Source: Comamonadaceae bacterium
GTDB taxonomy: Bacteria > Pseudomonadota > Gammaproteobacteria > Burkholderiales > Burkholderiaceae_C
Direction: 5' to 3'
DNA length: 34,302 bases
NCBI GenBank assembly: GCA_947452785.1
Contig: CANGDZ010000038.1
Span: 1 to 34,302, forward strand
Part shown: positions 767-13,028 of the stretch, one piece after another
How the letters are laid out: each line of letters begins with the position of its first letter
How positions within the stretch are numbered: position 1 is the first letter of the stretch
The notes under the pieces: model-generated
The model's input: only the letters and a program-made list of their open reading frames with translations
The model's database searches: none
Told to the model about the DNA's origin: nothing
Made by a program: the position numbers and the translations under genes

Positions 767-1340
767 AAATAAAACACAGTTCCACTTTTCTGTTGAATTT
801 ATATAGTCCAGATTTTGTGCGGCTTTAAACCTAAGTATTAGAAGTTACATTGGGCCGATCTAGTCTGCAGGCTCCAATCACTTCTTATGCATTGACCTGA
901 GTGAAGAGGGTGTCCCGAATTTTGTTTAAATGGGCCGAGTATTAAATCGTTGGCGTCCTTGCTCCAAATTAGTTGATCACAGGGTGTGACCGCTTTGGCG
1001 CAGCCGACCCGATTTTCCAATGCGCCTTGAAGGACTGCAAACGCGACATTTGAGTCACTGAAGCCCAAAAGTCAAACAGCCGCTTCAGATCGAAATCAGC
1101 AATTCAACTTTGGCTGATGTATGTCCGATTAAAGCGTGAAGTCACCTAAGACAGTACTTCAAACAAACTCAGAAAACACGGGGGTGCTGGTTCAATGTTG
1201 ATGACTTCAAAGAGCTGCCGTGCTGGCAAAAGAGTCAACATTGAAATCAATCCTGACCGCCAACCCAGTAATTGTGCGGCTTGCAGGATGACAGACCGAA
1301 TAGAATTCCCACCGTGGGAATACTATTTGCTAAAAATAAG
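767..1340. other. Intergenic stretch without a convincing gene
   Basis: Only short open frames occur here (for example 838-1068 on the reverse strand), with no recognisable domain and no good ribosome binding site. The only structure I see is a 17-bp near-perfect palindrome at 1305-1321 (ATTCCCAC-C-GTGGGAAT), whose role is unknown. Before the island inserted, this was the sequence downstream of tRNA-His. Confidence 0.5.
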
Positions 1341-1370
1341 CAAAAAGCCCGGCTATACCGGGCTAAGTGC
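1341..1370 (-). terminator. Original chromosomal terminator of tRNA-His, now stranded left of the island
   Basis: Read leftwards, the stem AGCCCGG/CCGGGCT (1346-1352 with 1358-1364, 5-base loop) is followed by a run of five T. It lies 11 bases beyond the CCA end of the duplicated tRNA-His 3' half at 1381. It was therefore probably the native tRNA-His terminator before integration. Confidence 0.7.
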
Positions 1371-1380
1371 TTGATTCATA

Positions 1381-1429
1381 TGGGGTGGCTGATGGGGCTC
1401 GAACCCACGACAACAGGAATCACAATCCT
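1381..1429 (-). repeat. attL: 49-bp duplicate of the tRNA-His 3' half
   Basis: The 49 bases are identical to 12926-12974. They run from the encoded CCA through the T arm and variable loop to the 5' side of the anticodon loop. After 1429 the sequence leaves the tRNA and becomes AT-rich island DNA, so this copy cannot make a tRNA. It is the left attachment-site product of integration. Confidence 0.93.
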
Positions 1430-1557
1430 TACTTTTATATATTCCCTCGTGTTGATAGGTGTAGTATAATCGTTATAAATCAATAATTTACGGAATACCA
1501 ACTATCCACACAACCAGTTACCGTGTTGATTGAAATTGAGTCATATTCGCTGAATTA

Positions 1558-1625
1558 GCCTACAGATTGCCTACAGATTTATGAGCTTTTTACCAATGAA
1601 GCGAAATGAAATCTGCCTACAGATT
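1558..1625. repeat. Left arm-type repeats GCCTACAGATT (three copies)
   Basis: Two head-to-tail copies lie at 1558-1579 and a third at about 1615-1625, ending 11 bases before the integrase ATG. The same tandem pair occurs just inside the right end at 12850-12867. Position and orientation suit integrase arm-binding sites, and overlap with the int leader suggests autorepression. The role is inferred. Confidence 0.65.
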
Positions 1626-1636
1626 GGGGGTAATCC

Positions 1637-2977
1637 ATGAAACCGCAAGAAAACCGCGTAAACCTGACTGCTGGCCGGGTGGACGCCTTCGCCTGCCCAC
1701 CTGATAAATCCCAAGCGTTTCTATGGGACACAGACACCCCAACGCTGGCGCTACGCGCTACTCCAACAGGCCGCAAGACCTACATATTTGAAGCGCGGCT
1801 GAATGGCTCGACCATCCGGATCAATATTGGCACGCTGGCAGATTGGCCGATTAAACAGGCGCGGCTAAAGGCCCAAGGCTTGAAGATGCTGGTAGACGGA
1901 GGGACTGACCCGCGTGAGGTTGAACGTGACAGACAAGCAGCCTTCGTTGAAAAGAAGACCGCCGCCACTGCCAAGCTGGAAGCCGCCAAAGTTGCCGCCT
2001 TAACCGTGGGCGAAGTCTGGGCCGCTTATATTGAACAGCGCCGCCCGCATTGGGGTGACTTGCACTTACGCGACCATATCGACAAAGCCAAGGCCGGGGG
2101 CTTACCTTCTGGCCGCCGTGGTGGTGGCAAGCAATTAACCAAGCCGGGGCCGCTGGCTGCACTTATGCCGCTGGCACTGAAAGACCTTGACCAACCCACG
2201 ATTGAAGGATGGGCCGCCAAAGAAGGCTTAACCCGCCCAAGTTCTGCCCGCCTTGCGTGGCGATTGCTAACCGTGTTTCTGACGTGGTGCGCCGAACAAC
2301 CTCAATATGCCGCCCTGCTGCCGACAAAGAACCCGGCCAAGACAAAGAAGGCACGCGAGGCACTGGGCAAGGCTGGCACTAAATCGGACGTGTTGCAGCG
2401 CGAACAGTTGGCCGTATGGTTTGCCGCCGTCCAACAGATACCAAACCCGGTTATTGCCGCCTGCCTACAAATGATGCTGCTGACTGGCGCAAGGCCGGGT
2501 GAAGTGCTGGCGCTGAAATGGGAAGACATAAACACCCGTTGGAAGGGAATTCAAATCCGCGACAAGGTGGAAGGCACGCGCGAAATCCCGGCATCGCCCT
2601 ACATGCTGCACTTACTGGCCGCCCTGCCCCGCCGCAATGAATGGGTGTTTCCAAGCGCCACAAGTGCGACCGGCTGCCTGACCGAGCCCAACAACCCGCA
2701 CACCCGTGCCTGCAAAGCTGCCGGGCTGGACGGGCTTACCTTGCATGGCTTGCGCCGTTCTTTCTCAAGCTTGACCGAGTGGCTTGAAGTACCTGCCGGG
2801 GTAGTGGCACAGATACAAGGACACAAGCCAAGCGCGACGGCTGAAAAGCATTACAAGGTGCGACCGCTGGAACTGCTGCGCGTCCACCATGAAAAGATTG
2901 AAGTGTGGATTCTGGAGCATGCCGGTATCGAGTTTGACGCCAAGGCCACCCCGGGCAAGTTGCACGTAGTTGCATGA
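1637..2977 (+). CDS. int: Tyrosine-type site-specific integrase
   Basis: This 446-aa recombinase catalyses integration and excision at the tRNA-His site. The N-terminal ~95 residues match the arm-DNA-binding domain of P4-type integrases (TLALRATPTGRKTYIF...). A SAM-like core-binding region follows at about 120-230. The catalytic domain has the expected residues: Arg286 in LLTGARPGE, His370 and Arg373 in LHGLRRSF, His396 in IQGHKP, and the nucleophile Tyr406 in EKHY. The ATG at 1637 follows a GGGGG tract at a suitable distance. Length is normal for the family (about 400-450 aa). It lies next to attL and reads into the island. A second, broken copy of its C-terminus lies 0.8 kb downstream at about 3670-3786, so this gene or its 3' flank has been recombined. 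It appears intact. Confidence 0.95.
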   Translation: MKPQENRVNLTAGRVDAFACPPDKSQAFLWDTDTPTLALRATPTGRKTYIFEARLNGSTIRINIGTLADWPIKQARLKAQGLKMLVDGGTDPREVERDRQAAFVEKKTAATAKLEAAKVAALTVGEVWAAYIEQRRPHWGDLHLRDHIDKAKAGGLPSGRRGGGKQLTKPGPLAALMPLALKDLDQPTIEGWAAKEGLTRPSSARLAWRLLTVFLTWCAEQPQYAALLPTKNPAKTKKAREALGKAGTKSDVLQREQLAVWFAAVQQIPNPVIAACLQMMLLTGARPGEVLALKWEDINTRWKGIQIRDKVEGTREIPASPYMLHLLAALPRRNEWVFPSATSATGCLTEPNNPHTRACKAAGLDGLTLHGLRRSFSSLTEWLEVPAGVVAQIQGHKPSATAEKHYKVRPLELLRVHHEKIEVWILEHAGIEFDAKATPGKLHVVA

Positions 2978-2999
2978 CGGTACGATATAAGATACCATC

Positions 3000-3323
3000 A
3001 TGGAATTACGCATCTACACCGATACGCTGAACAGACAACCGTTGACGCAGTGGCTTGGAGAATTGAAAGACATTCGGGCACGGGCACAGATACGGGCAAG
3101 GCTAGCGCGTGTTGAGGCGGGTAACCTTGGAGACTGCAAGCCCCTGCGCGATGGTGTCCAAGAGTTGCGGATTGACTATGGGCCGGGTTACCGCGTGTAC
3201 CTGAGCAGGCAAGGCCCGGTCATGGTGTTGCTGCTTTGTGGAAGTGACAAAAGCGACCAAACTCGCGCCATCAATCAGGCCATTGATTATTTAAATGACT
3301 GGAAGCAAAGGGGGAAACCATGA
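3000..3323 (+). CDS. RelE/HigB-family toxin (addiction module killer protein)
   Basis: This 107-aa protein belongs to the RelE/ParE superfamily, in the branch often annotated as putative addiction module killer protein; most such toxins cleave ribosome-bound mRNA. Family features are the N-terminal IYTDTLNRQPLTQWLGELKD helix region, the core ARAQIRARLARVEAGNLGDCKPLRDGVQELRIDYGPGYRVY, and the C-terminal VLLLCGSDKSDQTRAINQA. The toxin precedes its antitoxin, the HigBA-like order, and the two reading frames overlap by ATGA. The ATG begins 22 bases after the integrase stop with no clear Shine-Dalgarno sequence. A short dyad (GGTA 2979-2982, TACC 2993-2996) around a TATAA-like stretch may be the promoter-operator. 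It probably stabilises the island. RNase activity is inferred from the family. Confidence 0.88.
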   Translation: MELRIYTDTLNRQPLTQWLGELKDIRARAQIRARLARVEAGNLGDCKPLRDGVQELRIDYGPGYRVYLSRQGPVMVLLLCGSDKSDQTRAINQAIDYLNDWKQRGKP

Positions 3324-3619
3324 ACGCACCGCGTGACGCGAACTATGACGACTACATGGGCGAAGCCCTGAAAGATCCCGCCGAGGCTGCTGCCTACATT
3401 GAGGCCGTGATGGAACTTGACGACCCAGCTTCGCTACTGGTGGCGCTGCGACACGTTGCCAAAGCCCACGGCATGGCAGAGGTGGCACGCCGCGCCGATG
3501 TGGGTGACAAGACGCTGTTCAAAGCCCTAAGTGCTGATGGCAACCCGACGCTTTCCACGGTTCATAAAGTATTGCACGCAGTCGGTTTGCGCCTGAGTGT
3601 TGTGCCTGAGCACGCATAA
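3320..3619 (+). CDS. HigA-type antitoxin (addiction module antidote protein)
   Basis: This 99-aa cognate antitoxin overlaps the toxin stop by four bases (ATGA), and a GGGGG ribosome binding site lies a few bases before the ATG. The C-terminal half is a helix-turn-helix: MAEVARRADVGDKTLFKALSADGNPTLSTVHKVLHAVG fits the XRE-like fold, with the recognition helix near DKTLFKAL. The N-terminal YDDYMGEALKDPAEAAAYIEAVME segment is typical of the antidote family (TIGR02684-like) and should contact the toxin. It is expected to neutralise the toxin and repress the shared promoter near 2979-2996. The pair sits between the intact integrase and the integrase-tail remnant, so the module probably arrived by recombination. 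Confidence 0.88.
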   Translation: MNAPRDANYDDYMGEALKDPAEAAAYIEAVMELDDPASLLVALRHVAKAHGMAEVARRADVGDKTLFKALSADGNPTLSTVHKVLHAVGLRLSVVPEHA

Positions 3620-3669
3620 CAGCTTTATTCCTGTCAAATCCGCGTTTAATTGCAGACGGCATCGAGGGG

Positions 3670-3786
3670 TTCCCCCTGAATGGTCTGCTGGCGATTCACA
3701 TCGAAAAGATTGAAGCGTGGATTTTGGAACAGACGGGTGTCAGATTCGATGCTACCCAGTCAGCAAGCCGCATGCAGTGGCCGCTT
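3670..3786 (+). pseudogene. Remnant of an integrase C-terminus
   Basis: The frame beginning at 3670 encodes FPLNGLLAIHIEKIEAWILE followed by QTGVRFDA. It aligns with the extreme C-terminus of the intact integrase (PLELLRVHHEKIEVWILE, then HAGIEFDA). At DNA level GAAAAGATTGAAG is shared at 2891-2903 and 3703-3715, and similarity continues with third-position changes. There is no catalytic part and no start, so it is a displaced tail of a related but non-identical integrase. It is in frame with the following gene, so the long open frame from 3724 is a fusion artefact. Confidence 0.78.
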
Positions 3787-3807
3787 AGATTACACAGGAG
3801 TCACGTC

Positions 3808-4428
3808 ATGAAAATTGAAAAGTTCTATCTCTGGTCTGACCTACCGGCGGACATAGCCGTAGCGCAAGGCATGAAACCAGATTCAGTATTCAATGATTTA
3901 GACGCGATTGAAGATAAGGATAGCGATGAGTGGTGGCTGGAGTCACAAAAGTTGGAATCCATTGCAAAAACCAAGTTAGCAGAAAAACTTTGGCTCGATA
4001 TTTACAATGGGGAACTGCCCGTACGGAAAGCGAACGGCGATCCATTAGGCGGGGATTCAAAAAAATTTCACGTCATGGGCTTGGACGCTCCACACTTAAC
4101 CCGTGATGAAGGAAATACATGGCTCAAAGTTAACCGCTACCAGCAGACATGGAACCCCACAAAGCAGCATTCAGCGAGTGTTGCCGCAAAACCATGGCTT
4201 GTTTCAGATCCGAAAGACCCTAACCCTAAGCAGCCTTGGTACACACCTGCTCGTTATTTTGCGCGTCAACTGATCAAAGACGATCCAACTCTACGGCAAA
4301 AGTCCTTGAAGCTGGCCGATAAGGTGTCCAAGTCACTCGACAACGTAGCCATCTACAAACGAGGTGGTGTCAAGCCTTTAGCTGCGGACACGATACTTAA
4401 AGCATTTGCAAACGTGAAGCTGGGTTAA
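3808..4428 (+). CDS. Conserved-looking hypothetical protein (206 aa)
   Basis: I do not recognise the family. The start at 3808 was chosen because AGGAG lies at 3796-3800, seven bases upstream; the open frame extends further left only through the integrase remnant. The protein (MKIEKFYLWSDLPADIAVAQ...) is mixed charge, has no membrane segment or signal peptide, and has no cysteine cluster. The N-terminal ~60 residues are acidic (DLDAIEDKDSDEWW). The C-terminal half is basic and helical, with YFARQLIKDDPTL and a closing KRGGVKPLAADTILKAF that could bind nucleic acid. It is followed at once by a hairpin at 4428-4456. Its place between integrase/TA and the replication genes suggests an island-regulation or DNA-binding role, but that is only position. 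Confidence 0.7.
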   Translation: MKIEKFYLWSDLPADIAVAQGMKPDSVFNDLDAIEDKDSDEWWLESQKLESIAKTKLAEKLWLDIYNGELPVRKANGDPLGGDSKKFHVMGLDAPHLTRDEGNTWLKVNRYQQTWNPTKQHSASVAAKPWLVSDPKDPNPKQPWYTPARYFARQLIKDDPTLRQKSLKLADKVSKSLDNVAIYKRGGVKPLAADTILKAFANVKLG

Positions 4429-4456
4429 AAACTTTCAAACTTTCAGCGAAAGTTTT
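4428..4456 (+). terminator. AT-rich hairpin after the 206-aa gene
   Basis: AAAACTTTC (4428-4436) and GAAAGTTTT (4448-4456) form a perfect 9-bp stem with an 11-base loop right at the stop codon. The stem ends in TTTT. It may be a weak intrinsic terminator separating the left module from the replication operon, or an operator dyad. Confidence 0.45.
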
Positions 4457-4544
4457 AACGTAAATCGTACTAGGAGCCAGCAGCAATGCGGGTTTAACCA
4501 AACTCTCGTAGTCGCTTGCAAGCTTTAAACGCACGCCAAAAATT

Positions 4545-4582
4545 GTGAACCTCAACAGCGCGAAATGCGCAGAAAGGTTCAC
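4545..4582 (+). promoter_or_regulatory. Nested dyad overlapping the ribosome binding site of the AlpA-like gene
   Basis: GTGAACCT (4545-4552) pairs with AGGTTCAC (4575-4582). Inside it, GCGC (4558-4561) pairs with GCGC (4567-4570). The second outer arm contains the GG of the GAAAGG ribosome binding site and ends two bases before the ATG at 4585. It could act as an RNA hairpin hiding the RBS, or as a DNA operator for the gene's own product. Confidence 0.5.
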
Positions 4583-4584
4583 CA

Positions 4585-4869
4585 ATGGAATCCAGTACCA
4601 ACCTAAGCATCCAAACGATGCGCGAGGCTGCCGCCCCGCAAAAGTTCACGGCGCAATACTTGCCGCTGGAACTAGTCAACAAACCCAACCTCACGACTGC
4701 GGAGTGTGCCTTTTACCTGAACCGCCGCCCACAGACTTTGCGGGGCTGGGCTTGCCTTGAGAATGGTCCGCTGCGCCCTGCGCGCATCGGTGGTCTTTTA
4801 GCCTGGAGCACTGCGACCGTTAAGGCGCTGGCCGGTATTGGATCCGGCGAGAAAGGGGCAACCAAATGA
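4585..4869 (+). CDS. AlpA/excisionase-like helix-turn-helix protein
   Basis: This is a 94-aa protein whose central part, LTTAECAFYLNRRPQTLRGWACLENGPLRPARIGGLLAWSTATVKALAG, has the layout of MerR-like/AlpA or excisionase winged HTH domains. It has a helix, the NRRPQTLRGWA recognition helix, then a wing with LRPARIGGLLAWS and a last helix. Such proteins either bend DNA as recombination directionality factors or activate the element's genes. The ATG is preceded by GAAAGG located in a dyad. Its stop overlaps the next start by ATGA, so it leads the replication operon. This suggests a switch controlling excision and/or replication. HTH assignment is good; the choice between excisionase and activator is open. 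Confidence 0.75.
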   Translation: MESSTNLSIQTMREAAAPQKFTAQYLPLELVNKPNLTTAECAFYLNRRPQTLRGWACLENGPLRPARIGGLLAWSTATVKALAGIGSGEKGATK

Positions 4870-5303
4870 AGCCCTCATATATTCCACGGTACGGTCAAGC
4901 TTGCTGCCCTAATTGCAAGTCAGAATTTGACCTTGCAGCAGCCAAGCCAACTTTTCTTGAAAAAGCGCCGCACAACGACGTTATCGTTTACATCATGTGC
5001 CCTGAATGTCATGCCGCATATCAAGCGGGCGATGGTTTAGCTCGCAAGTCGATGTCCGACAAGTGCTTTATCAACTTCAAGCTCAACGGTATAGATTCAG
5101 ACCGCGCTGTCTACCCGTGGGCGATCACAACAATGCTCACTATGGAAATCAACAACTTCGAACCAGTAGCGGCAATTGAAAACGGACATGGTATGTCCTG
5201 TGAGCTGTATTTCGGAATCTGCTCTGGTACGCATAACCTTGTTGTTTTGCCGGGTGGTGTGCGCATCGTTACTGTCAAGCTGACAACTTCGGAGGTCATA
5301 TGA
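4866..5303 (+). CDS. Hypothetical zinc-ribbon protein
   Basis: This is a 145-aa protein of unknown function. Two knuckles, CPNC at residues 14-17 and CPEC at 45-48, would form a four-cysteine zinc ribbon near the N-terminus. The rest has no recognised motif, membrane span or signal. It overlaps the AlpA-like gene (ATGA) and the primase gene (ATGA at 5300-5303), so it is translated as part of the replication operon. A GGAGG precedes the primase start within its own end. It may be an accessory to the primase or a regulator; that is inferred only from the coupling. Confidence 0.75.
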   Translation: MKPSYIPRYGQACCPNCKSEFDLAAAKPTFLEKAPHNDVIVYIMCPECHAAYQAGDGLARKSMSDKCFINFKLNGIDSDRAVYPWAITTMLTMEINNFEPVAAIENGHGMSCELYFGICSGTHNLVVLPGGVRIVTVKLTTSEVI

Positions 5304-6214
5304 CCCATCTTGATTTAGTTCAGAGCGGCCTTGCGCTGGTGCCCGTGCCCCACATGCAGAAAGGTCCTTCGACCGTAGGCTGGAACCTGCGAGAGAACGT
5401 CATCACTACGCCACAGGCGGCGCTGCGGCTGGCTGGGAAAAACATCGGACTTGCCCACGCGTTTTGCACACCGACGCCGACATGTGCCATCGACCTTGAC
5501 AACTACAAGGAATCAAAAAAGTGGCTGGCCCAAGAAGGCATCGACCTCGGTCTGCTGCTTCAAAGCCCCGATGCGGCGGTAATTTGGTCGGGCAAACAAA
5601 ACAGCCTCAAGCTGCTTTATCGGCTTCCAAAGGAAGTTGGTGCTCCAGTGTCAATTCAGCTGCATGGACCTGACGGGACGATGATGTTGGAGTTCCGCTG
5701 CGCAGCCAAGAACGGTACAACATTGCAAGACCTGCTGCCACCCAGCGTTCATCCGACGGGCAGCCAATACCAGTGGCTTGGCAGCGGATCGCCACTCAGC
5801 ATCCCCGACATACCCAGCAGTTTGCTAAAAATCTGGCTCAACATAAAGTCAGACAAGCGAACTTGTAAGCGGCCAACCCGGCAAAGCAGTGGCCCATGTA
5901 CGAAGTCGGCGACGTTGAGCCTGACCACGCCACGCCCTGAGACGCCAAGGGAGGTCGCTATCGTTAAGCAATTGCTCAGACATATCAGTGCTGACTGTGG
6001 GCGGGATACTTGGCGTGACATTGTGTGGGCGATTCTCAGCACAGGCTGGGCGTGCGCGGTTGATCTTGCCAAGGCATGGAGTGAGTCAGCTCCAACACGT
6101 TACGAAGACGCTGCATTCTGGACGCTGGTGCAGACATTCGACCCAGCGCACGTCGAAGGACCCTCTCTGGGCACCGTGTACTTCCACGCACGTAAAGGAG
6201 GCTGGATTGGCTAA
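5300..6214 (+). CDS. Primase-polymerase (AEP Prim-Pol with PriCT-like C-terminus)
   Basis: This 304-aa protein matches the bifunctional DNA primase/polymerase family of plasmids, phages and satellites, which makes primers to start element replication. The N-terminus LALVPVPHMQKGPSTVGWN is the usual prim-pol opening. Asp65 and Asp67 in CAIDLDNY are the metal-binding pair. LPPSVHPTGSQYQW (about 146-159) is the conserved nucleotide-binding segment containing His151. Residues ~215-304 form a PriCT-2-like helical domain (RDTWRDIVWAILSTGW ... FHARKGGW) that usually links the polymerase to a helicase. Here the helicase is a separate gene overlapping by eight bases, unlike the fused P4 alpha protein. 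The start follows GGAGG and overlaps the previous stop. Confident family call; activity not shown. Confidence 0.88.
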   Translation: MTHLDLVQSGLALVPVPHMQKGPSTVGWNLRENVITTPQAALRLAGKNIGLAHAFCTPTPTCAIDLDNYKESKKWLAQEGIDLGLLLQSPDAAVIWSGKQNSLKLLYRLPKEVGAPVSIQLHGPDGTMMLEFRCAAKNGTTLQDLLPPSVHPTGSQYQWLGSGSPLSIPDIPSSLLKIWLNIKSDKRTCKRPTRQSSGPCTKSATLSLTTPRPETPREVAIVKQLLRHISADCGRDTWRDIVWAILSTGWACAVDLAKAWSESAPTRYEDAAFWTLVQTFDPAHVEGPSLGTVYFHARKGGWIG

Positions 6215-7583
6215 CCCCACTTACCCCAATACGCCAACAACAGCCCTGCAACACTTGCAGGATCGGTTCGCAATCATCGACCTGTCAGGCGAAATCCGCG
6301 TGGTTGATAGGAATCAAATCGCCAGCGCCCTATCTGGAGCCCATAAAGGCGAAGTCTCGTTCTACAAAAAGGCTGATGCCGAACTACTGATGAAGCGCTC
6401 ACTTGAACGCTTGCCCGTGGCAAGTAAGCCAAATGATGTGATCAGGGATTTTTGGGTCTCACCCAATACCCTGCAATACGAAGCAACCGCATTCAGCCCG
6501 CTTAAAACACCGCCAACGACTCTGAACTTTTGGGTCGGACCTACCGTCCAGCCAGCTCCCGGCTGCTGGGTTCTGCTGCGGGATTACTTGCGGGACGTGA
6601 TCTGCGGCGGGAATAGTGACGCGTACGACTACCTTATTCAGTACATGGCCCACATGATCCAGAGGCCAGAAGAAAAGCCGGGCGTCATGATCGTTCTTCT
6701 GGGCGGGCAAGGCACTGGCAAGGGTGTTTACTTCAGCCTCCTTCGCGCTATTTGGCGTATAACAACGCTGCAAGTTTCTGATGTTGACCAAGTGATCGGC
6801 AAGTTCAATGCCGCCTTGGAGCGAAACTTCGTCGTCTGCATGGATGAGGCGCTCTTTTACGGCGACCGGCGTGCGATTGACAGGTTGAAATCTACTGTGA
6901 CCGAACAGTGCATCCAGATCGAGCAGAAGTACCAGCCATCAAGGAGCATTGACTCAGTGCATCGGTTTTTTGCATCTAGCAACCACGAGCATTTCGCAAA
7001 CGTCGAGCGTGATGACCGCCGCTTCTTGTTTCTGCGTTTATCGACAATCCGCCAGCAGGATACTAGTTACTTCAGCGGTGTGATTGCGGCGATCAATGAC
7101 CCCGGCACGCTAAATGCCTTGGCTTACTACCTCCAGCGCAAAGACATCAGCGGATTCAACGTCCGGGTCAAGCCCAAAACCGACGAGCAAATGACTCAAA
7201 AGTTACGGTCCCTTCAAGGGTTTGAACGTTTTTGGTACGAGGTCCTTACGTCGGCAGATTTGGCTGGTGGTAGTTGTGGTTCGGATACTTGGACGGCTGA
7301 CGTTTTTGTATCCACTAGCAGCTTGTTGAGCTCTTACCGGGACTTCGACAAGAACGCGCAACGTCACCACACCGTACAAGAAGCGCAAGTAGCTAACACT
7401 ATTCGCCGTATTTGCCCATCGGCAAAGCGAGGGCGTGAAACTGTTGGCCCCCAAAGCCTCCACGCGCAACAGCAGAGACGGGGTTTCCGCTTCCCTGCAA
7501 TCAAAATAGCACGGGACGAGTTCTCGACTTATCTCGGGTGTGACCTTGGCTGGGAAGGAGGCGAGCTAAATGACGATCAGTGA
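6207..7583 (+). CDS. SF3/D5-like replicative helicase (primase-helicase family)
   Basis: This 458-aa ATPase should unwind the element's origin and fork. Walker A is GGQGTGKG (residues 166-173). Walker B is VVCMDEA with Asp213-Glu214. The sensor region is FASSNHEHFANVERDDRRFLFL, with Asn259 and candidate arginine fingers Arg271/272. The pattern fits virus/plasmid helicases annotated as primase-helicase or VapE-like (DUF5906-type). The frame is open further upstream, but that part is out of frame inside the primase gene. The TTG at 6207 is chosen because AAGGAG (6195-6200) lies six bases before it and translation couples to the primase stop at 6212-6214. No ATG fits before the conserved part. 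The C-terminal ~120 residues are basic and may bind the repeats just downstream. Confidence 0.85.
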   Translation: MANPTYPNTPTTALQHLQDRFAIIDLSGEIRVVDRNQIASALSGAHKGEVSFYKKADAELLMKRSLERLPVASKPNDVIRDFWVSPNTLQYEATAFSPLKTPPTTLNFWVGPTVQPAPGCWVLLRDYLRDVICGGNSDAYDYLIQYMAHMIQRPEEKPGVMIVLLGGQGTGKGVYFSLLRAIWRITTLQVSDVDQVIGKFNAALERNFVVCMDEALFYGDRRAIDRLKSTVTEQCIQIEQKYQPSRSIDSVHRFFASSNHEHFANVERDDRRFLFLRLSTIRQQDTSYFSGVIAAINDPGTLNALAYYLQRKDISGFNVRVKPKTDEQMTQKLRSLQGFERFWYEVLTSADLAGGSCGSDTWTADVFVSTSSLLSSYRDFDKNAQRHHTVQEAQVANTIRRICPSAKRGRETVGPQSLHAQQQRRGFRFPAIKIARDEFSTYLGCDLGWEGGELNDDQ

Positions 7584-7845
7584 TTGCCGTCATCGGGCTT
7601 TAGCGTTGCCACCCTTGCCACCCCTGCCACGCCTTGCCACACCCCGTGGCTTCGATTTATTGAATGTGGGCGCGGGGTTACAGCCTGTTGCCACCTTTGC
7701 CACCTGTTTTGAAAAAGTATTTGAAATAGAAGAACTCAGAGAAAGTTTTTCTGTTTTGGGTGGCAAAGGCGGCAAGCCTGGCTACGCCGCGCATGGGGTC
7801 CTGCGCGCAATGCAAAAATCAGCCTCCCAAAGAGCCCCGCACTGA
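7570..7845 (+). CDS. Possible small protein overlying the iteron region
   Basis: This is a 91-aa frame starting inside the helicase end, with a very good AAGGAGG (7555-7561) eight bases before its ATG. The coding potential is doubtful. The N-terminal part (LPPLPPLPRLATP, VATFATCF) and the GGKGGK segment simply translate the 9-bp-period DNA repeats, and I know no family with this sequence. The GGAGG also encodes WEGGEL of the helicase. Either a short coupled protein is made, or the frame is an accident over a replication origin. Confidence 0.35.
   Translation: MTISDCRHRALALPPLPPLPRLATPRGFDLLNVGAGLQPVATFATCFEKVFEIEELRESFSVLGGKGGKPGYAAHGVLRAMQKSASQRAPH
7606..7775. repeat. Iteron-like TTGCCACC repeats; candidate replication origin
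   Basis: Octamers TTGCCACC or one-base variants begin at 7606, 7615, 7624 and 7633, then at 7688 and 7697. In opposite orientation, GGTGGCAA lies at 7759-7766 and GGCGGCAA at 7768-7775. Within each cluster the period is exactly nine bases. Between the second and third clusters (about 7708-7758) is an AT-rich stretch that could melt. It lies right after the helicase gene, the usual place for a satellite or plasmid origin. Origin function is inferred. Confidence 0.6.
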
Positions 7846-7874
7846 GTGCAGGAAGCAGTCTAAAAAGCAAGGTC

Positions 7875-8195
7875 ATGTCCACTATCAGCACCCTTGGCGG
7901 CCGCATCAAATGCAACCAGTGTCAAGCCAAGTCGAAGAGATCCCAACAACAGTGCCGTGGGCCTGCGGTCCGAGGCAAGATCCGCTGCCGCATGCATGGT
8001 GGCTCTGGGTCTGGCCCAAAGACTGAAGCTGGTCGGCAACGCTGTGCAGACGCCAAAACCATCCATGGCTTCGACACCCGTCAAGCGAGAACTGATCGGG
8101 CACTGGGTATGCGCAGGCTGCGCGAACTTGAAGACCTTGGTTACGCTATAGGAATGATGACTGGCCCTAGAACGCCGGGAAGAAAGCCTACCTAG
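7875..8195 (+). CDS. Small Cys/His-rich HGG-motif protein
   Basis: This 106-aa basic protein is of a type common in phages and islands: a Cys-rich start (Cys13, Cys16, Cys27, Cys38, His41) followed by HGGSGSGPKTEAGRQRC and a KTIHG element. The Cys/His spacing suggests one bound zinc, and the protein probably binds nucleic acid. I do not know an assigned function. The ATG has an AAGG a few bases upstream. It closes the replication block and precedes the cargo genes. The motif order (CxxC, SKRS, CRGPAVRGK, CRMHGG) is conserved in proteins I have seen in mobile elements, hence the moderate confidence. Confidence 0.75.
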   Translation: MSTISTLGGRIKCNQCQAKSKRSQQQCRGPAVRGKIRCRMHGGSGSGPKTEAGRQRCADAKTIHGFDTRQARTDRALGMRRLRELEDLGYAIGMMTGPRTPGRKPT

Positions 8196-8284
8196 TTTTA
8201 GAGTGTCGCCATACCCACGGGGGAACTGGTGCCTCTTCGAGCCAGAGGCCAAGGTGCGAAGCATGGGCCGTTAGTTCAGCACTT

Positions 8285-8302
8285 GCGTACAATCACGTAC
8301 GC
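8285..8302. promoter_or_regulatory. GCGTAC-N6-GTACGC dyad upstream of the acyltransferase gene
   Basis: A perfect 6-bp inverted repeat (8285-8290 and 8297-8302) overlaps a second dyad, ATCAC-N7-GTGAT (8292-8308). It lies about 150 bp before the acyltransferase start in a 253-bp gap and may be an operator for the cargo gene. No regulator is known. Confidence 0.35.
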
Positions 8303-8448
8303 TGTGATATGACATAGGGCGGCTTTTCACCGAAATAGCGGCGCGCCTTTGCCACAAAGTCGCTCCAAATTTGGACCGCTAATAATCTGAGTGACTACCG
8401 TTGCGCGTGCAAAATCTCAGCCAACCCATCATCCAGCACAGAACATTA

Positions 8449-9990
8449 ATGGACTTTTCAAAGAATATTCAGGCCATGCGAGGTTTGGCCGCCTTGATGA
8501 TTGTCGTTGGACATTGCCTTGCCATCAGTAATATTCAATTACCATTCTGGCTCGGTGGCAATCTCATTCATTACTTTGCCTACGCCGGTGTCGATATCTT
8601 TTTCGTCATCTCTGGCATTGTGGTTAGCGGCGTCGCGAAAAAAGAGGCGGATCATTCCACGAACTATTCGAGTGGTGTGACTTCATTTCATTTCATTACG
8701 AAGCGGATTTTCCGAATTTATCCAATTTATTGGATTGTTTTTTTTACTACATGCCTATTGGCACCCTATACCGGGCTAGCACTTAACGCTGCAACCAGCG
8801 GCAATGCCATTCAATCTCTTTTTCTTATCACTAACAATAACAGCATCGTTCCGCAAGCATGGACGCTCGTCTTCGAAATGTTTTTTTATGTCGTACTGTC
8901 GGTGATTATCTTTATTGGTAAAAACCGGCTTTATCACAGCATTGCGTACTGGATGGGGCTAACGCTGATAGCTTGTGTGGTGTGCAGAATTTTCGATATT
9001 GATGCATTCATTTTTACCGATGCATTAATCTTTGAATTTGGCTTCGGCTGTCTGGTTAGCTATCTTATCGCCAAAGAATTCCGACCAAAGCCACAGATTC
9101 TTCTGCTGATCGGTATGGCATTTTTTAACTTTGGCGCCTATCAAACGTCAATCCATGGATTACTATCTGCGCTACCAAGAATGCTCAGTTTTGGTGTTGG
9201 TAGCGCATTTTTTCTGTACGGGCTGCTTTGTTTGGAATTCAATGCGAAGAAGCGCTGTGCGAAACCCGCTGTTTATCTCGGTGAAATTTCTTATTCAATT
9301 TATTTATGGCACGAAATCGCGATCGGGCTTTTGCTGTATTTTTCGAGCGCTCTCGGGGACATTCGCACTGTCCACCCGTTACTATTCGTTGCCTTTGTCC
9401 TATGCGTTGTGATCGGCGTAAGCGCCATCAGTTATCAATTCATCGAACTGCCATTCATTCGTTTTGGGCATCGTTGTTTGGGTCATGTGGATCGTCAAAT
9501 AGAAGCGAACTGGAAGCTGGCATATTTGAAAATCGGCGCTTTTGCAGTGTTGATTTGCGCGATCCTGATTTTTGGAATGCGCGACCTGCTATCGCATCAT
9601 ATGGCCAGAAAATTTTTTGCCGGAGCAAATTTACCTTCACAAACTGGTCAAATATCAGGGGCAAAGCGCGTTGCTGTTCCCGGCAAGGACCAGATTGGAT
9701 TCGTGACATATGGACCTTACATTCCCTTGCCAATAGGAAGATATCAAGTTGCATTCACCTACCTAAGTTTGGCGCCGCAAAATACGGTAACCGGTAGGGC
9801 TGATATCGCAGACTCTGCTACTGGAAAGCTACTGTCTGAATTCCCATTATTTGGCACTGACGGGCACGAGAAAGAAATAGCAACGGCATTTGAGATCACG
9901 AACAATGATGGACACAGGATCGAATTCCGAAATTTTTGGAATGGGGTCTCAGAATTGCAGATAATTAGCGTCAAACTCTCAGCAAATTAA
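8449..9990 (+). CDS. Membrane acyltransferase 3 family protein with C-terminal extra domain (cargo)
   Basis: This is a 513-aa OafA/YrhL-like acyltransferase, a multi-pass inner-membrane enzyme that adds acyl (often acetyl) groups to surface sugars. Motifs are NIQAMRGLAALMIVVGHCL with Arg11 and His22, YAGVDIFFVISG, the RIFRIYPIYWIVF motif, QAWTLVFEMFFYV, and LGEISYSIYLWHE. About ten hydrophobic segments run to residue ~385. The last ~130 residues are soluble and beta-rich (GPYIPLPIGRYQVAFTY ... HRIEFRNFWNG), resembling a sugar-binding sandwich. I prefer the ATG at 8449 (MDFSKNIQ) over the in-frame TTG at 8401 because the family starts there; the RBS is weak. The DNA looks more AT-rich than the flanks, a sign of separate transfer. 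It may alter O-antigen or capsule and so phage sensitivity. Confidence 0.88.
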   Translation: MDFSKNIQAMRGLAALMIVVGHCLAISNIQLPFWLGGNLIHYFAYAGVDIFFVISGIVVSGVAKKEADHSTNYSSGVTSFHFITKRIFRIYPIYWIVFFTTCLLAPYTGLALNAATSGNAIQSLFLITNNNSIVPQAWTLVFEMFFYVVLSVIIFIGKNRLYHSIAYWMGLTLIACVVCRIFDIDAFIFTDALIFEFGFGCLVSYLIAKEFRPKPQILLLIGMAFFNFGAYQTSIHGLLSALPRMLSFGVGSAFFLYGLLCLEFNAKKRCAKPAVYLGEISYSIYLWHEIAIGLLLYFSSALGDIRTVHPLLFVAFVLCVVIGVSAISYQFIELPFIRFGHRCLGHVDRQIEANWKLAYLKIGAFAVLICAILIFGMRDLLSHHMARKFFAGANLPSQTGQISGAKRVAVPGKDQIGFVTYGPYIPLPIGRYQVAFTYLSLAPQNTVTGRADIADSATGKLLSEFPLFGTDGHEKEIATAFEITNNDGHRIEFRNFWNGVSELQIISVKLSAN

Positions 9991-10230
9991 TGCGCACCTG
10001 TGTTGCGACAACTGGGCATTGCCAGATTTGCCGGTGCTGGAAGTGGTTCTTAGAACGATCGCAGATGAGTCTGGAAGTGAAATCGTTTGAGCGAAATAGT
10101 ATGCGTAGCTAGACCGGAGTCCCATCTTGCACAAGTGGGGGCGGGGGTACGGAGGGGTCAGCAGATTGTCGACATTGCTACGGCAACAGAAGGAAGCTGA
10201 TATGTTTTTCACGCTCGGATTTTTATCTCC

Positions 10231-11001
10231 ATGACCCGCATCACCGGCCACACCCTGATCGCAACAACCTGTTGCTGCATGTTGTACGCCACTCCCCAAT
10301 ATGGGTCGATGAACTTCAGTGCTTGGCTGTACTGGACTGACGGTCACAAGGAGGGCTCTCTGATGCCGGGAGGCGGTGGGCTTCGCAAATGCAAATGCGG
10401 AGAGATTTACCTTCTGAGGGAATCCATCAGACTGGAGCTCGACGCCGAACCCAGTACACCCCAGACACAGCACCTCGAAGCCGCAGACCTTCCGCATGCT
10501 GTCACCTCCCCGAACAAGGCCGTAGAACTGGCTGCACGGCGTGAGTACTGGATGGAGCTGAACCACGACTACCGTGATTTGTACCGAGCCCACAGGGATG
10601 CGGAGGAAGTGACATCACAAGCCAAGTGGGAGTCAGACTGGCATGCTGCCAACCCAGACCAACGATCAGCGTTTAAAAGGGATGCAGATTGGCTCTTGCG
10701 CCGCAAACCTGTTGGACCGCCGGCAATAGTCGACAAGCCCTTTAGCGTGCCTCCCTATCAACCCACGCAGCTTCAGCTTGAAAACATGACCCGGTTGCTG
10801 GAACTACTGCTTGAGAGGGCTCACGAGCCGTATGGCCCCGACATGCTTGAGGTCGCAGAAATTTACCGTGAACTGGGTCGCTTTGATGAAGCCAAAGAAG
10901 CCCTCAGGCAGTGCCCAGAAGATGACCGAGGCAATCCAGAAAAAGTGATGGAGCAGATGATTGACAAGGCAGTCACCGCGCCTGTGCGGTATCGCATGTA
11001 G
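10231..11001 (+). CDS. Hypothetical protein with possible zinc-binding start and TPR-like C-terminus
   Basis: This 256-aa protein is not firmly recognised. The N-terminal ~65 residues (CCC, then FSAWLYWTDGHKEGSLMP and LRKCKCGEIYLL) look like a small Cys-containing domain in which a W-TDG-x-LMP stretch separates two cysteine groups. The middle is charged and helical. Near the C-terminus, LEVAEIYRELGRFDEAKEALRQ is a single clear TPR-like helix pair, suggesting protein-protein contacts. The RBS before 10231 is poor, so a later ATG such as 10309 is possible. It lies between the acyltransferase and two exported proteins and has no membrane segment. Likely a real island cargo gene; role unknown. 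Confidence 0.6.
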   Translation: MTRITGHTLIATTCCCMLYATPQYGSMNFSAWLYWTDGHKEGSLMPGGGGLRKCKCGEIYLLRESIRLELDAEPSTPQTQHLEAADLPHAVTSPNKAVELAARREYWMELNHDYRDLYRAHRDAEEVTSQAKWESDWHAANPDQRSAFKRDADWLLRRKPVGPPAIVDKPFSVPPYQPTQLQLENMTRLLELLLERAHEPYGPDMLEVAEIYRELGRFDEAKEALRQCPEDDRGNPEKVMEQMIDKAVTAPVRYRM

Positions 11002-11026
11002 GCTTAGAAAGCTGGCGAACGATTAA

Positions 11027-11680
11027 TTAGAAACAGTTGATATTATTTCCAATTACAGTGCAATTGGTCATGCGGCCAGCAGGATTTCTAATTGTGAAGT
11101 TTTGAATTTGAGGCGTTGCTGGCGGCATTGGAGCCATGCCGAGTGATTGGCGGGATGCATTTGCTAGGTTTTCAGAAGCATTGGAAGATGTCCCACCCAT
11201 GAGTGCAAAGCCAAATTTCATCAATGCTAAACTTTTCTGTATTTCTTTCTGTTTCTCAAACTCAGCAACTTTTGCATCGTATCTACGTTGCTCCTCCTGA
11301 TATCTGTTCTGGTCAGCTTCATAGGCTAATTGCCTTTGCGCTTGCTCTTGTTTTGCAATACTAATCTTGAGGCGGCAGTCGGAATACTGGGGTGTCCCAA
11401 CAGTGAAACCAAACTGATTGCACGTCTGGTGATCCGGTGTATCGTCACCCTGTGCAGATTTGACTGTTGCTTGTTGCTGTCTTGGTTGTTCTATGGCCGT
11501 CTCTTTAGCCAACGTAGCACGACGGTCAAGCTCAAGAACACACTCGCCATATGCTGGGGTACGCTTCTTGAATCCAATCTGAGAACATGTCGCTTCATAG
11601 TCCTCAAGTCCAACCGCTGATGCAGTAAAGACTAATGCCGCCAGACAAGAACCGACTACCGTGACAATTGAAGTACGCAT
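11027..11680 (-). CDS. Exported protein with two C-x14-C motifs and a coiled coil
   Basis: This 217-aa protein has an N-terminal signal peptide (MRTSIVTVVGSCLAALVFTASA). Two copies of a Cys motif follow, C32-C47 (CSQIGFKKRTPAYGEC) and C87-C102 (CNQFGFTVGTPQYSDC), each with two cysteines 15 residues apart around GF and T-x-x-Y. Residues ~105-150 are rich in Gln, Glu, Arg and Lys and probably coil. The C-terminus ends in two close cysteines (NCTVIGNNINCF). It overlaps the preceding lipoprotein gene by 25 bp on the same strand, and the two share the motif, so they are probably co-expressed and act together in the periplasm or at the outer membrane. AAGGA precedes the ATG. Function unknown. Confidence 0.75.
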   Translation of the reverse strand: MRTSIVTVVGSCLAALVFTASAVGLEDYEATCSQIGFKKRTPAYGECVLELDRRATLAKETAIEQPRQQQATVKSAQGDDTPDHQTCNQFGFTVGTPQYSDCRLKISIAKQEQAQRQLAYEADQNRYQEEQRRYDAKVAEFEKQKEIQKSLALMKFGFALMGGTSSNASENLANASRQSLGMAPMPPATPQIQNFTIRNPAGRMTNCTVIGNNINCF

Positions 11681-12180
11681 TTTCCGAATCCTTCCGTTGA
11701 AGGTTTGAAACCTAATTCAGTGCACTTCTTCTTTGCCACATCTAGAGAAAACCTCTCTCCGACTTCATTTTTCGACATTGGAGTAGGTTCAATTAATTCG
11801 TTATTAATTCTACTATCATATTGAACGATTGGAGGCTGCCCCACTGGCAATAAAACTGGCTGAACCACAGGCAATAAAGCTGGCGGCACAAATGCCTTTT
11901 GACATGTAAAAGAGTATTCAAAATACTCCCCGACTTTTTTAGTATAAGTAATTGTGGGTTCAATCAAGCCTCGCGCAGAGCAATAGCCATTTGCTGACTG
12001 GCGTACGTTACCGCCGGTGTTAGTAGAAAAATGGCTCCTAATTACGCCCCCCGAATCCCACCCTTCATTGACACCAGTTCCGAACCAAACCTCGCCAACA
12101 TTTGAAGTAGTTCCGCAGCCGCTAATTAGAAATAAAAAACCAGTAGCGAGTACTGATGACTTGATAATTTTCATTAACAT
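11656..12180 (-). CDS. Putative lipoprotein sharing the C-x14-C motif
   Basis: This 174-aa protein starts with a lipoprotein signal: a hydrophobic ATGFLFLIS stretch, then the lipobox LISGC with Cys22 as the lipidated residue. A proline-rich linker (PPALLPVVQPVLLPVGQPP) occupies about 117-135. The C-terminal 22 residues hold C153-C168 around ELGFKPSTEGF, the same motif found twice in the overlapping downstream gene. A second in-frame ATG six bases in (12174) could also serve as start; GAG lies a few bases upstream of either. The motif occurs in small lipoproteins of proteobacterial mobile elements. Envelope location is well supported and function is unknown. Confidence 0.75.
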   Translation of the reverse strand: MLMKIIKSSVLATGFLFLISGCGTTSNVGEVWFGTGVNEGWDSGGVIRSHFSTNTGGNVRQSANGYCSARGLIEPTITYTKKVGEYFEYSFTCQKAFVPPALLPVVQPVLLPVGQPPIVQYDSRINNELIEPTPMSKNEVGERFSLDVAKKKCTELGFKPSTEGFGKCVLQLSR

Positions 12181-12849
12181 ATTTTCTCAGTAAGATAAAA
12201 TTAATTTTGTTGAATTTATATTTAATATAAGCCTTTACTACCGCTGCAGGGTCAGTAATTACCACAGTCACATGCCCAGCAACACGAGCCGCCAATTTTA
12301 CTCTTGACGCCCCAACCATCAGTAGCCGAAAATGAACGGACACTATTTTTGACGCTGCTTATTCATTTACAAATGTTGAGTCGTTTCGATCTTTATCAAG
12401 ATGTAACTGGCAGTTGATTTTTTTAGCACATGGTCTGTGCAAAATCATACTCGTCTGGCGTCCAACGTTCCATCAATTTTTTCAAAATTTTTATGTAGCC
12501 CCCCGGGGTCAGAAAACGAAAAGCTATGGGGGGTGTTCGCTTGAGCAAAACACAGTGCGTAGGTCCAGCAGAACGATACGGCCCGATCTAGGGGGTGGGG
12601 ATGTGGGCGGGGTCTCGCTGGGTAGGTTTTTTATGCCCATCCCCTTGGGCAAATGAAGTCTCACGCGAAGTCCAACGTTAGACACGATTTCCCAGTAATC
12701 TCAAAAGTCTGTGACGAACAGTGATTGATACCAAAGCCGGTGGTGCTCTGACACATTGGCCGGGTAGAGGTACGGTGAGTTCTGAGCAGATCGAGCAGTG
12801 ACAACCGTTGTTAAGAACAAGTGGGCATCGGGCCGCATTTAAGCAAGTT
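12181..12849. other. Right-end island stretch without a convincing gene
   Basis: About 670 bp between the lipoprotein gene and the right-end repeats holds only weak open frames (for example 12414-12656 on the forward strand). These have no motif or ribosome binding site. AT-rich sequence at 12181-12240 probably carries the promoter of the leftward lipoprotein pair. G/C tracts occur near 12500-12610. It may contain attachment-site accessory sequence or decayed genes. Confidence 0.5.
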
Positions 12850-12867
12850 GCCTACAGATTGCCTACA
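12850..12867. repeat. Right arm-type repeat pair GCCTACAGATT-GCCTACA
   Basis: It is an 18-bp match in the same orientation to the tandem repeats at 1558-1575 inside the left end, about 60 bp from attR. This is the expected place for integrase or accessory-factor arm sites. Confidence 0.65.
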
Positions 12868-12879
12868 AGCACCCAAAAA

Positions 12880-12916
12880 GAAAAACGCCCTAGAAACCAA
12901 AAAAGTCGCTAGGGCG
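12880..12916 (-). terminator. Island-supplied terminator for tRNA-His
   Basis: Read leftwards, CGCCCTAG (from 12916) pairs with CTAGGGCG (to 12886) around a 15-base loop and is followed by TTTTT-C-TTTTT. It sits 10 bases past the CCA end of the intact tRNA-His. It differs in sequence from the stranded native terminator at 1341-1370 but does the same job. Confidence 0.75.
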
Positions 12917-12925
12917 CATGGATAC

Positions 12926-12974
12926 TGGGGTGGCTGATGGGGCTCGAACCCACGACAACAGGAATCACAATCCT
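12926..12974 (-). repeat. attR: 49-bp direct repeat within the intact tRNA-His
   Basis: Identical to 1381-1429. It covers the tRNA 3' half including the encoded CCA and the anticodon (GTG, 12966-12968). The junction leaves a complete tRNA gene, as usual for tRNA-targeting integrases. Confidence 0.93.
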
Positions 12975-13002
12975 GGACTCTACCAACTGAGCTACAGCCA
13001 CC
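12926..13002 (-). tRNA. tRNA-His (anticodon GTG)
   Basis: The 77-nt gene includes an encoded CCA. It has the extra G at -1 opposite C73 that marks tRNA-His, the acceptor pair GTGGCTG/CAGCCAC, the D-arm TAGCTCAGTTGGTAGA, the anticodon loop centred on GTG, and a T arm with GGTTCGAGCC. A TATAAT box lies 10 bases upstream at 13013-13018. It serves as the island's integration site, and its 3' half is now the copy carried by the element. Confidence 0.97.
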
Positions 13003-13012
13003 GTAGGGCTAA

Positions 13013-13018
13013 ATTATA
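13013..13018 (-). promoter_or_regulatory. -10 box of tRNA-His
   Basis: Read leftwards the sequence is a consensus TATAAT, 10 bases before the tRNA 5' end and between the ppiD stop and the tRNA. The -35 (around GAAAAT, inside the ppiD end) is poor. Read-through from ppiD may add to expression. Confidence 0.6.
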
Positions 13019-13028
13019 ACCCAGCCCA

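Follow-up and report, generated by a model that had tools for sequence, protein, structure and literature searches.

An island in a tRNA-His gene of a Comamonadaceae bacterium is probably a phage satellite resembling the Gram-negative phage-inducible chromosomal islands

We analyzed a stretch of 34,302 nucleotides (the window) from a Comamonadaceae bacterium, which is the whole of contig C38 of a 120-contig metagenome-assembled genome (MAG; G000, 3.50 Mb, 98% complete, 4% contaminated), and which holds an island inserted in a tRNA-His gene. The island is bounded by a direct repeat, 1381-1429 and 12926-12974, whose copies are identical at 49 of 49 bases and lie 11,545 bases apart, the length of the island between repeats being 11,545 bp. 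Because ARAGORN and Rfam placed a tRNA-His gene at about 12926-13001 on the minus strand, the 49-bp repeat is the 3′ part of that gene. The G+C content is 51% in the island, 57% in the right flank, and 49% in the short left flank. From left to right, the island carries arm-type sites, an integrase, a HigBA-type pair, a protein without assigned function, a winged-helix protein, a Zn-ribbon protein, a Prim-Pol primase, and a superfamily 3 (SF3) helicase; then come iterons, an HGGxSTG protein, an O-acetyltransferase, a protein with a weak tetratricopeptide repeat (TPR) match, two exported proteins on the opposite strand, a gene-poor stretch, arm sites, and tRNA-His. The gene-poor stretch, 12181-12925 (about 750 bases), contains no convincing gene. 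The features that carry the argument are given below, with E values of profile matches and with dN/dS (the ratio of nonsynonymous to synonymous substitution rates); L160 is a related element in another MAG, and G449 and G421 are genomes of the same genus.

1381 to 1429, no strand: attL, the displaced 3′ part of tRNA-His (49 bp; 100% identity to 12926-12974; the empty site of G449 runs into an intact tRNA after these bases)
1637 to 2977, plus strand: tyrosine integrase with an arm-binding domain (PF00589, Phage_integrase, 5e-14; PF13356, Arm-DNA-bind_3, 4e-11)
4585 to 4869, plus strand: predicted AlpA/Xis-type winged-helix regulator or excisionase (alignment of 11; phrog_597, 3e-4; predicted model)
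4866 to 5303, plus strand: Zn-ribbon protein of the replication cassette (Pfam match below cut-off; kept in L160 at 62-63% identity, dN/dS 0.24)
5300 to 6214, plus strand: Prim-Pol primase with PriCT_2 (PF09250, 2e-14; PF08707, 3e-6; 83% identity in L160, dN/dS 0.15)
6207 to 7583, plus strand: SF3 helicase, DUF5906/VapE-like (PF19263, 1e-18; 89% identity in L160, dN/dS 0.15)
7606 to 7766, no strand: iteron cluster, probable replication origin (five TTGCCACC in 161 bases; cluster kept in L160)
7875 to 8195, plus strand: HGGxSTG protein, a possible small-terminase-like DNA-binding protein (NF041373, 1e-10; phage relatives; dN/dS 0.18)
12670 to 12836, no strand: conserved noncoding right-end block, a candidate cis site for packaging or replication (83% identity to L160 15892-16058, beside a different tRNA)
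12926 to 13001, minus strand: intact tRNA-His, of which 12926-12974 is the attR copy (ARAGORN, Rfam, repeat search)

An unoccupied counterpart of the insertion site was found in G449, where window positions 1042-1380 were matched at 327 of 338 bases and the sequence then ran straight into an intact tRNA-His; the G449 contig begins there, so that the left-flank comparison covers 339 bp only. The preliminary description of this DNA, made from its letters, had called the island a site-specific element, and the 49-bp repeat, the tRNA-His gene, and the integrase confirm this, as does the comparison of related genomes at tRNA-His, which yielded both an element-free site with the same left flank (G449) and related integrases at tRNA-His in three other genomes. 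The noncoding DNA of the left flank at about 906-1180 is a dispersed intergenic repeat, parts of which recur at several sites in G000, G449, G761, and G767 and in further genomes of the genus.

We then considered the replication cassette. Both the Prim-Pol and the DUF5906 helicase exceeded the Pfam cut-offs, and they are separate genes read in different frames. In the window and in L160, the two copies known, a TTG that overlaps the primase stop is the probable start of the helicase; in the window it lies at 6207, behind AAAGGAGG at 6194-6201, and in the L160 copy it is preceded by AAAGGGGG. The helicase sequence matched PDB 6k9c, whose chain is named Primase (E value = 4e-9) and which we take to be the NrS-1 phage enzyme. 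The motif TTGCCACC has seven sites in the 34-kb window against 2.8 expected, and five of the seven lie within 161 bases behind the helicase, four of them direct and one inverted; no more than two TTGCCACC fell within 161 bases in any of 2,000 order-2 Markov simulations of the island. The cluster is larger than any that simulation produced and is a probable origin of replication; the replication block proposed in the preliminary description is supported. A small open reading frame (ORF) at 7570-7845 was tried as a gene and rejected (differences of 16/12/20 by codon position, 15 gap columns, saturated dS of 3.8); its dN/dS was 0.21 over 76 codons and its frame is open in both the window and L160, and we provisionally take it as origin DNA. 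The predicted structure of the Zn-ribbon protein (pLDDT of 44) was not used. Across the integrase, replication, and HGGxSTG genes, dN/dS ranged from 0.10 to 0.24, indicating purifying selection.

A scan of 84,980 named genomes returned 22 loci, one of which, L160 in the MAG Comamonadaceae Jr-16oct17-137, carries the cassette. L160 is 83% identical in DNA to window positions 4833-8188 (Zn-ribbon 63%, primase 83%, helicase 89%, and HGGxSTG protein 77%), and it also has the iteron cluster and the 168-bp right-end block. In contrast, its integrase is 28% identical over 191 amino acids, its AlpA exceeds the PF05930 cut-off (6e-11), its right end lies at tRNA-Ser(CGA), and its cargo consists of other exported proteins (GNA1162-like, DUF4810, CsgG, and OMP). 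The att repeat of L160 is short (17 nucleotides exact, 80% over 30), and its boundary is less sure. The ppiD genes of the two MAGs are 68 to 71% alike while the cassettes are 83% alike, which favors horizontal movement. Because L160 shares with the window the cassette and the right-end block and not the integrase, AlpA, tRNA, or cargo, the cassette and the distal cis site would form a mobile core under purifying selection, and integrase and cargo appear to have been swapped around that core.

The right-end block is 168 bp of noncoding DNA, with little likeness between window and L160 on either side of it, and the differences within it show no codon bias. As a structured RNA the block was rejected, since it folded no better than shuffles (z-scores of 0.02 to 1.44) and had no Rfam match. 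The domain of the HGGxSTG protein (NF041373) occurs in phage proteins annotated as small terminases or preceding a large terminase: 21 phage records matched, at least five of them annotated as small terminase among the matches listed. The best phage match was a Pelagibacter phage protein called DNA binding (E value = 7e-5), with no terminase seen adjoining. The HGGxSTG protein may perhaps act as a packaging factor, which is the weakest step of the mechanism proposed below.

No terminase, capsid, portal, relaxase, or transposase was found among the Pfam matches of 18 proteins, 16 of them island ORFs. In the PHROGs scan, the sole structural name was a tail-fiber match at chance level (E value = 0.097, protein 3724-4428), and neither the Pfam nor the PHROGs scan revealed capsid genes of the island's own in the window, the trait of capsid-forming islands (cfPICIs). 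Ten proteins were also tried as defense genes, and none had a PADLOC match. The view that the island is satellite-like, lacking its own transfer machine, therefore stood, as families for capsids, portals, large terminases, relaxases, and transposases were missing from the results of the scans. The accompanying claim that it has no packaging gene held only in part: no terminase family was found, but some phage proteins with the HGGxSTG domain are annotated as small terminase.

The remaining features flank this core at both ends or make up its cargo.

1553 to 1626, plus strand: left integrase arm-type sites, a doubled GCCTACAGATT-type motif at 1553-1575 and a single copy at 1610-1626 (repeat search; putative role)
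3000 to 3323, plus strand: HigB/RelE-type toxin (TIGR02683, 1e-32)
3320 to 3619, plus strand: HigA-type antitoxin (TIGR02684, 2e-21; PF21716, 7e-20)
3685 to 3752, plus strand: remnant of a second integrase 3′ end (71% identity over 68 nucleotides to 2873-2940)
3808 to 4428, plus strand: protein without assigned function (ORF listed from 3724, ATG at 3808; no family above cut-off)
8401 to 9990, plus strand: cargo, O-acetyltransferase (PF01757, 1e-28; phrog_3333, O-acetyltransferase, 7e-49; phrog_6705, O-antigen acetylase, 3e-11)
10231 to 11001, plus strand: cargo, protein with a weak TPR match (TPR_8, 5e-4, below cut-off)
11027 to 11680, minus strand: cargo, exported protein in which two C-x14-C motifs occur (signal peptide recognized by eye; no family match over cut-off)
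11656 to 12180, minus strand: cargo, exported, lipoprotein-like protein in which one C-x14-C motif occurs (lipobox recognized by eye; no family match)
12845 to 12867, plus strand: right integrase arm-type sites, doubled (repeat search; also present in the G421 element and in MAG contig C14)

The integrase reading frame is open, with a dN/dS of 0.10 against the G421 copy. The 3′ end of the integrase occurs twice (2873-2940 and 3685-3752, 71% identical), flanking the HigBA pair, and this duplication is likely the scar of a past exchange of an int-higBA cassette. The AlpA-like protein matched no Pfam family at an E value of ≤0.001 (the only match, at 0.031, was irrelevant), and HTH_17 was matched weakly by two of its four scanned relatives. 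With its predicted model (mean pLDDT of 74), the best Foldseek matches were the Xis of phage Pukovnik, BldC, and the excisionase RdfS, at a probability of 1.0; the best E value was 0.012 (Pukovnik Xis), none being ≤0.001. The AlpA identity, not reached by profile, is supported by the modeled fold and by the position of the gene. As for the cargo, the O-acetyltransferase belongs to a phage-carried family (PHROGs), which suggests a change of the cell surface and phage exclusion, and three C-x14-C motifs were read from the translations of the exported pair. Exported-looking or lipoprotein genes occupy the right part of three elements (window 11027-12180, L160 12052-15107, and, in the G421 element, L075 8638-9219) and are different in each; they are possibly surface-exclusion cargo.

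Within the genus, an integrase match at an E value of ≤1e-60 was found in 6 of 90 genomes (the MAG itself, G421, G409, G752, G434, and G769), and the related integrases of G421, G752, and G409 lie at tRNA-His, the attL/integrase contig and the tRNA-His contig being separate in G409. The G421 element (L075 5050-9385, 4.3 kb, at tRNA-His, adjoining dnaB) combines an integrase 83% identical to that of the window with an AlpA-type gene; it also encodes an exported-looking protein and a protein that shares 53% identity with its replication-initiator-like counterpart in G752, and it too carries the doubled GCCTACAGATT-type motif at both ends. The G752 element (L100 8351-14919) measures 6.6 kb and lies at tRNA-His in a three-contig genome; the G434 element (L101 6019-17828) measures 11.8 kb and lies at tRNA-Asn, where two copies of a 49-bp repeat are 11,761 bp apart. 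Both have an AlpA-type gene, a DUF5681 protein, and a replication-initiator-like protein, with 57% between the two versions of the latter. G434 also encodes a protein of 710 amino acids that resembles proteins of Pseudomonas phage PAE2 (42%) and EBPR podovirus 1 (32%). On the 6-kb contig of G409, no replication gene was found and a KfrA-type protein was present. Because the same integrase family thus occurs with differing replication genes, the integrase and the AlpA-type gene form one module and replication another. The G752 integrase gene is broken by a stop, and a HigBA-like pair (by eye) adjoins it.

The MAG itself holds a second tRNA-His/ppiD locus (L103, G000:C14:153-927), 81% like window positions 12926-13700. 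The bin therefore leaves the host species of the island within the genus uncertain, and it probably mixes two related species or strains. On contig C14, an attR-like end with the arm sites seen in the window remains, as does a 149-bp piece that resembles window positions 10011-10159 at 85%. The arm sites lie in the last 78 bases of this end, where 2 differences were counted by eye. C14 yielded no homologue of the integrase of the window. Two readings were rejected: C14 as a prophage at the same tRNA-His, as its 56.9 kb look catabolic rather than phage by eye, and simple inheritance of the attR-like end with the chromosome, as the right end is identical at 103 of 111 bases versus 80% on the ppiD side.

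Farther afield, no close helicase relatives were found in IMG/VR with the window protein alone or with a two-sequence alignment, and a broader alignment gave 80 distant loci. Relatives of the helicase flanked by tRNA-gene direct repeats were seen in Marinobacterium (tRNA-Pro, 8,973 bp), Sphingopyxis (tRNA-Thr, 10,641 bp), Novosphingobium (tRNA-Gly, 11,055 bp; helicase relative, integrase not identified), and a relative in the same order, G090 (tRNA-Asn, 8,685 bp), and DUF5906 was over the cut-off in the Marinobacterium, Sphingopyxis, and G090 elements. The Marinobacterium sediminicola element (L161 5435-14455) pairs its primase-helicase with a Terminase_2 small terminase, and the G090 element has a major capsid gene with no other structural family seen. 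When the 66 proteins of seven elements were scanned (the window, L160, the four just named, and L029), no portal or large terminase appeared among the 25 families listed of 35 (Pfam) and of 68 (PHROGs). A related helicase was also present in 11 plasmid records, all typed non-mobilizable; the three best by E value were circular plasmids of 7.6 to 9.8 kb (L025, L026, and L027: Vibrio vulnificus pMP1, Roseomonas, and Methylobacterium nodulans pMNOD07). A gene of pMP1 bears the annotation phage tail protein.

Among 34 IMG/VR loci with a related integrase, several of them truncated, an AlpA-type gene lay ≤5 kb downstream in 20. L130 (9 kb; 793-8666) and L129 (16.5 kb) carry an integrase, an AlpA-type gene, a replication protein, an HK97-type capsid, and a portal; L130 also has a prohead protease, L140 a protease and a portal, and L126 a tape-measure protein. 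L129 and L130 resemble the window in their related integrase (49%) and the AlpA-type gene downstream but differ in their capsid and portal genes and in a replication protein like that of G752. These fragments are either capsid-forming satellites or phages, and such integrases therefore also serve capsid-carrying elements, perhaps phages.

From this evidence, we consider that the island is probably a phage satellite of the Gram-negative phage-inducible chromosomal island (PICI) type. The island is inserted in tRNA-His with an open integrase gene, it has a conserved replication cassette with iterons, and no structural or conjugation family was found among the scanned proteins. Because the protein families named imply these steps, a helper phage would switch on the AlpA/Xis-type protein, which together with the integrase would recombine the 49-bp repeats and so excise the island; the Prim-Pol and SF3 helicase would copy the circle from the iterons; and the helper would package the island DNA, perhaps with the HGGxSTG protein and the right-end block as its guides. 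Other phages would probably be excluded through changes that the O-acetyltransferase and the exported proteins make to the cell surface.

Several observations weigh against a satellite. The AlpA-like protein falls short of PF05930 and other AlpA profiles, and since integrase-AlpA pairs occur with phage late genes, the pair by itself is no proof of a satellite. The full cassette was found in one other element only (L160), the Zn-ribbon protein and the right-end block each occur in 1 of 299 family genomes, their own, and the MAG has a second HGGxSTG gene at the end of a contig bearing catabolic genes. No match in IMG/VR was obtained for the attP junction of an excised circle, a weak test made with one exact pattern, and PF04860, the sole portal family tested as a sign of a helper phage, was absent from the MAG; no helper was identified. 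The trailer hairpin 12881-12925 beside tRNA-His is also present in G440 and G406 without the arm motif; earlier insertions may have left it behind, or it may belong to the host in this clade. Finally, G449 is 97% identical to the window in the left flank and 77% in ppiD on the right, so that the flank was probably exchanged between species; together with the distribution of the trailer, this gives the site a recombinant history.

Of the other explanations, an integrative plasmid that replicates itself after excision, has no tie to phages, and spreads by chance transduction, transformation, or rare mobilization survives best, and we regard it as unlikely. The three small circular plasmids demonstrate that such a helicase can belong to a free replicon, and no helper-specific gene is proven in the window; however, one of those plasmids, pMP1, carries the annotated tail gene, an AlpA-type regulator stands behind the integrase, two sister DUF5906 elements have a small-terminase or a capsid gene, and the O-acetyltransferase cargo is of phage type. 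Clearly less probable is an integrative mobilizable element dependent on a conjugative helper, with the right-end block as an unrecognized oriT: the size, tRNA site, and toxin-antitoxin pair are compatible with it, as is a conserved noncoding block at one end, but there are no relaxase or conjugation genes among the Pfam matches of the 18 proteins, the block folds no better than shuffles, and integrase, AlpA, and DUF5906 primase are genes of satellite models. An immobile element, either a decayed prophage or a genomic island that has become fixed, to which the 750 gene-poor bases, the lack of a free circle (attP pattern, IMG/VR), and the integrase remnant at 3685-3752 would point, is just as improbable, given replication and integrase genes that are open and under purifying selection, perfect att repeats, the unoccupied site in G449, and a cassette 83% identical in DNA to an element in another tRNA when ppiD of the MAGs is only 68 to 71% alike.

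Beyond the phage-satellite reading, we tentatively raise a further and rather doubtful possibility, namely, an undescribed satellite family of the Burkholderiales whose inherited core would be the cassette (Zn-ribbon, split Prim-Pol/SF3 helicase, iterons, and HGGxSTG) with the 168-bp far-end cis site, and not the integrase, integrase-AlpA-HigBA modules and surface-altering cargo being swapped around it. As only the cassette and the right-end block were found in common between the window and L160, the cis site should be read by a cassette protein, a host factor, or the helper; in the boldest reading, the HGGxSTG protein and a pac/cos-like block would be a new packaging pair. A new betaproteobacterial family, as suggested in the preliminary description, is possible but rests on two elements sharing the full cassette.

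In the sources cited below, as far as they describe the hosts, PICI-like satellites have been tested in Gram-positive cocci, Escherichia coli, Pasteurella, and Vibrio, and the island would extend the pattern to a Burkholderiales lineage known from MAGs. Integrase, target tRNA, and cargo differ between two elements in which a replication cassette and a distal noncoding site travel together, and this provides a concrete candidate for a packaging or replication site. More members and their helpers can, moreover, be sought through the recurring integrase-AlpA pair and through tRNA-His, which is used repeatedly within one genus.

Among known systems, P4-like satellites share with the island a tyrosine integrase with an arm-binding domain, an AlpA/Vis-type protein, and replication by a primase-helicase, and their markers are psu, sid, delta, and P4 alpha. 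No Psu, Sid, or Delta family was found among the Pfam matches of the 18 proteins, and the island primase is a Prim-Pol. The Pseudomonas transfer-messenger RNA (tmRNA) islands I23, I44, and I55 resemble it in their tyrosine integrase, AlpA, RNA-gene site, and lack of transfer genes of their own, as that paper presents them, but are larger, with AlpA at the far end and a YqaJ/RadC core instead of Prim-Pol/DUF5906 (PMC12595487); I55, an integrase-AlpA island, is described as a satellite that a jumbo phage transduces (PMC12595487). The phage-inducible chromosomal minimalist islands (PICMIs) are modeled as integrase, AlpA, and DUF3987/DUF5906, with the fis site as hallmark, and the report counts 135 PICMI-like matches in complete genomes, 67 of them in Vibrionaceae, with no complete PICMI outside Vibrio genomes (PMC10803314). 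The island likewise has an integrase, an AlpA-type protein, and a DUF5906 primase, with PF00589 and DUF5906 matched and the AlpA profiles not reached; however, it lies in tRNA-His rather than at fis and measures 11.5 kb, against a mean of 6.7 kb in Vibrionaceae (PMC10803314).

The closest likeness is to the Gram-negative PICIs of the EcCICFT073 type, outlined as an integration zone (integrase and AlpA), a dynamic zone, a replication zone (primase, single-stranded DNA-binding protein, and DUF5906, with the origin downstream of pri), and a late zone; they can carry late genes, mostly a major capsid gene, and AlpA is said to mark satellites rather than prophages (PMC10111431). A further feature list has packaging proceed via a TerS homologue or via helper cos/pac sites (PMC6092414). 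As described in these two sources, they share with the island an integrase and an AlpA-type regulator at one end; a primase/DUF5906 zone with the origin behind it, then a late or cargo zone; core genes in one direction; small size; and no structural family of its own found in the island. The island has an integrase with a specific attachment site, primase and replication genes followed by an iteron cluster as the putative origin, and the PICI gene order with no structural families in the ORFs scanned. Other traits of the type are an attachment site that prophages never use and induction, packaging, and interference that depend on a helper. Unlike them, it sits in tRNA-His of a betaproteobacterium, its primase and helicase are two overlapping genes, an HGGxSTG protein stands where some PICIs have terS, HigBA adjoins the integrase, and its AlpA-type protein is short of PF05930. 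The earlier statement that the island matches no known type of element accordingly gives way, since integrase, AlpA, primase/DUF5906, origin, and late zone is the order described for Gram-negative PICIs (PMC10111431, PMC6092414). Given an AlpA short of its profile, a site other than that of the PICMIs, and the PICI gene order, and without claiming full membership, we therefore call the island PICI-like.

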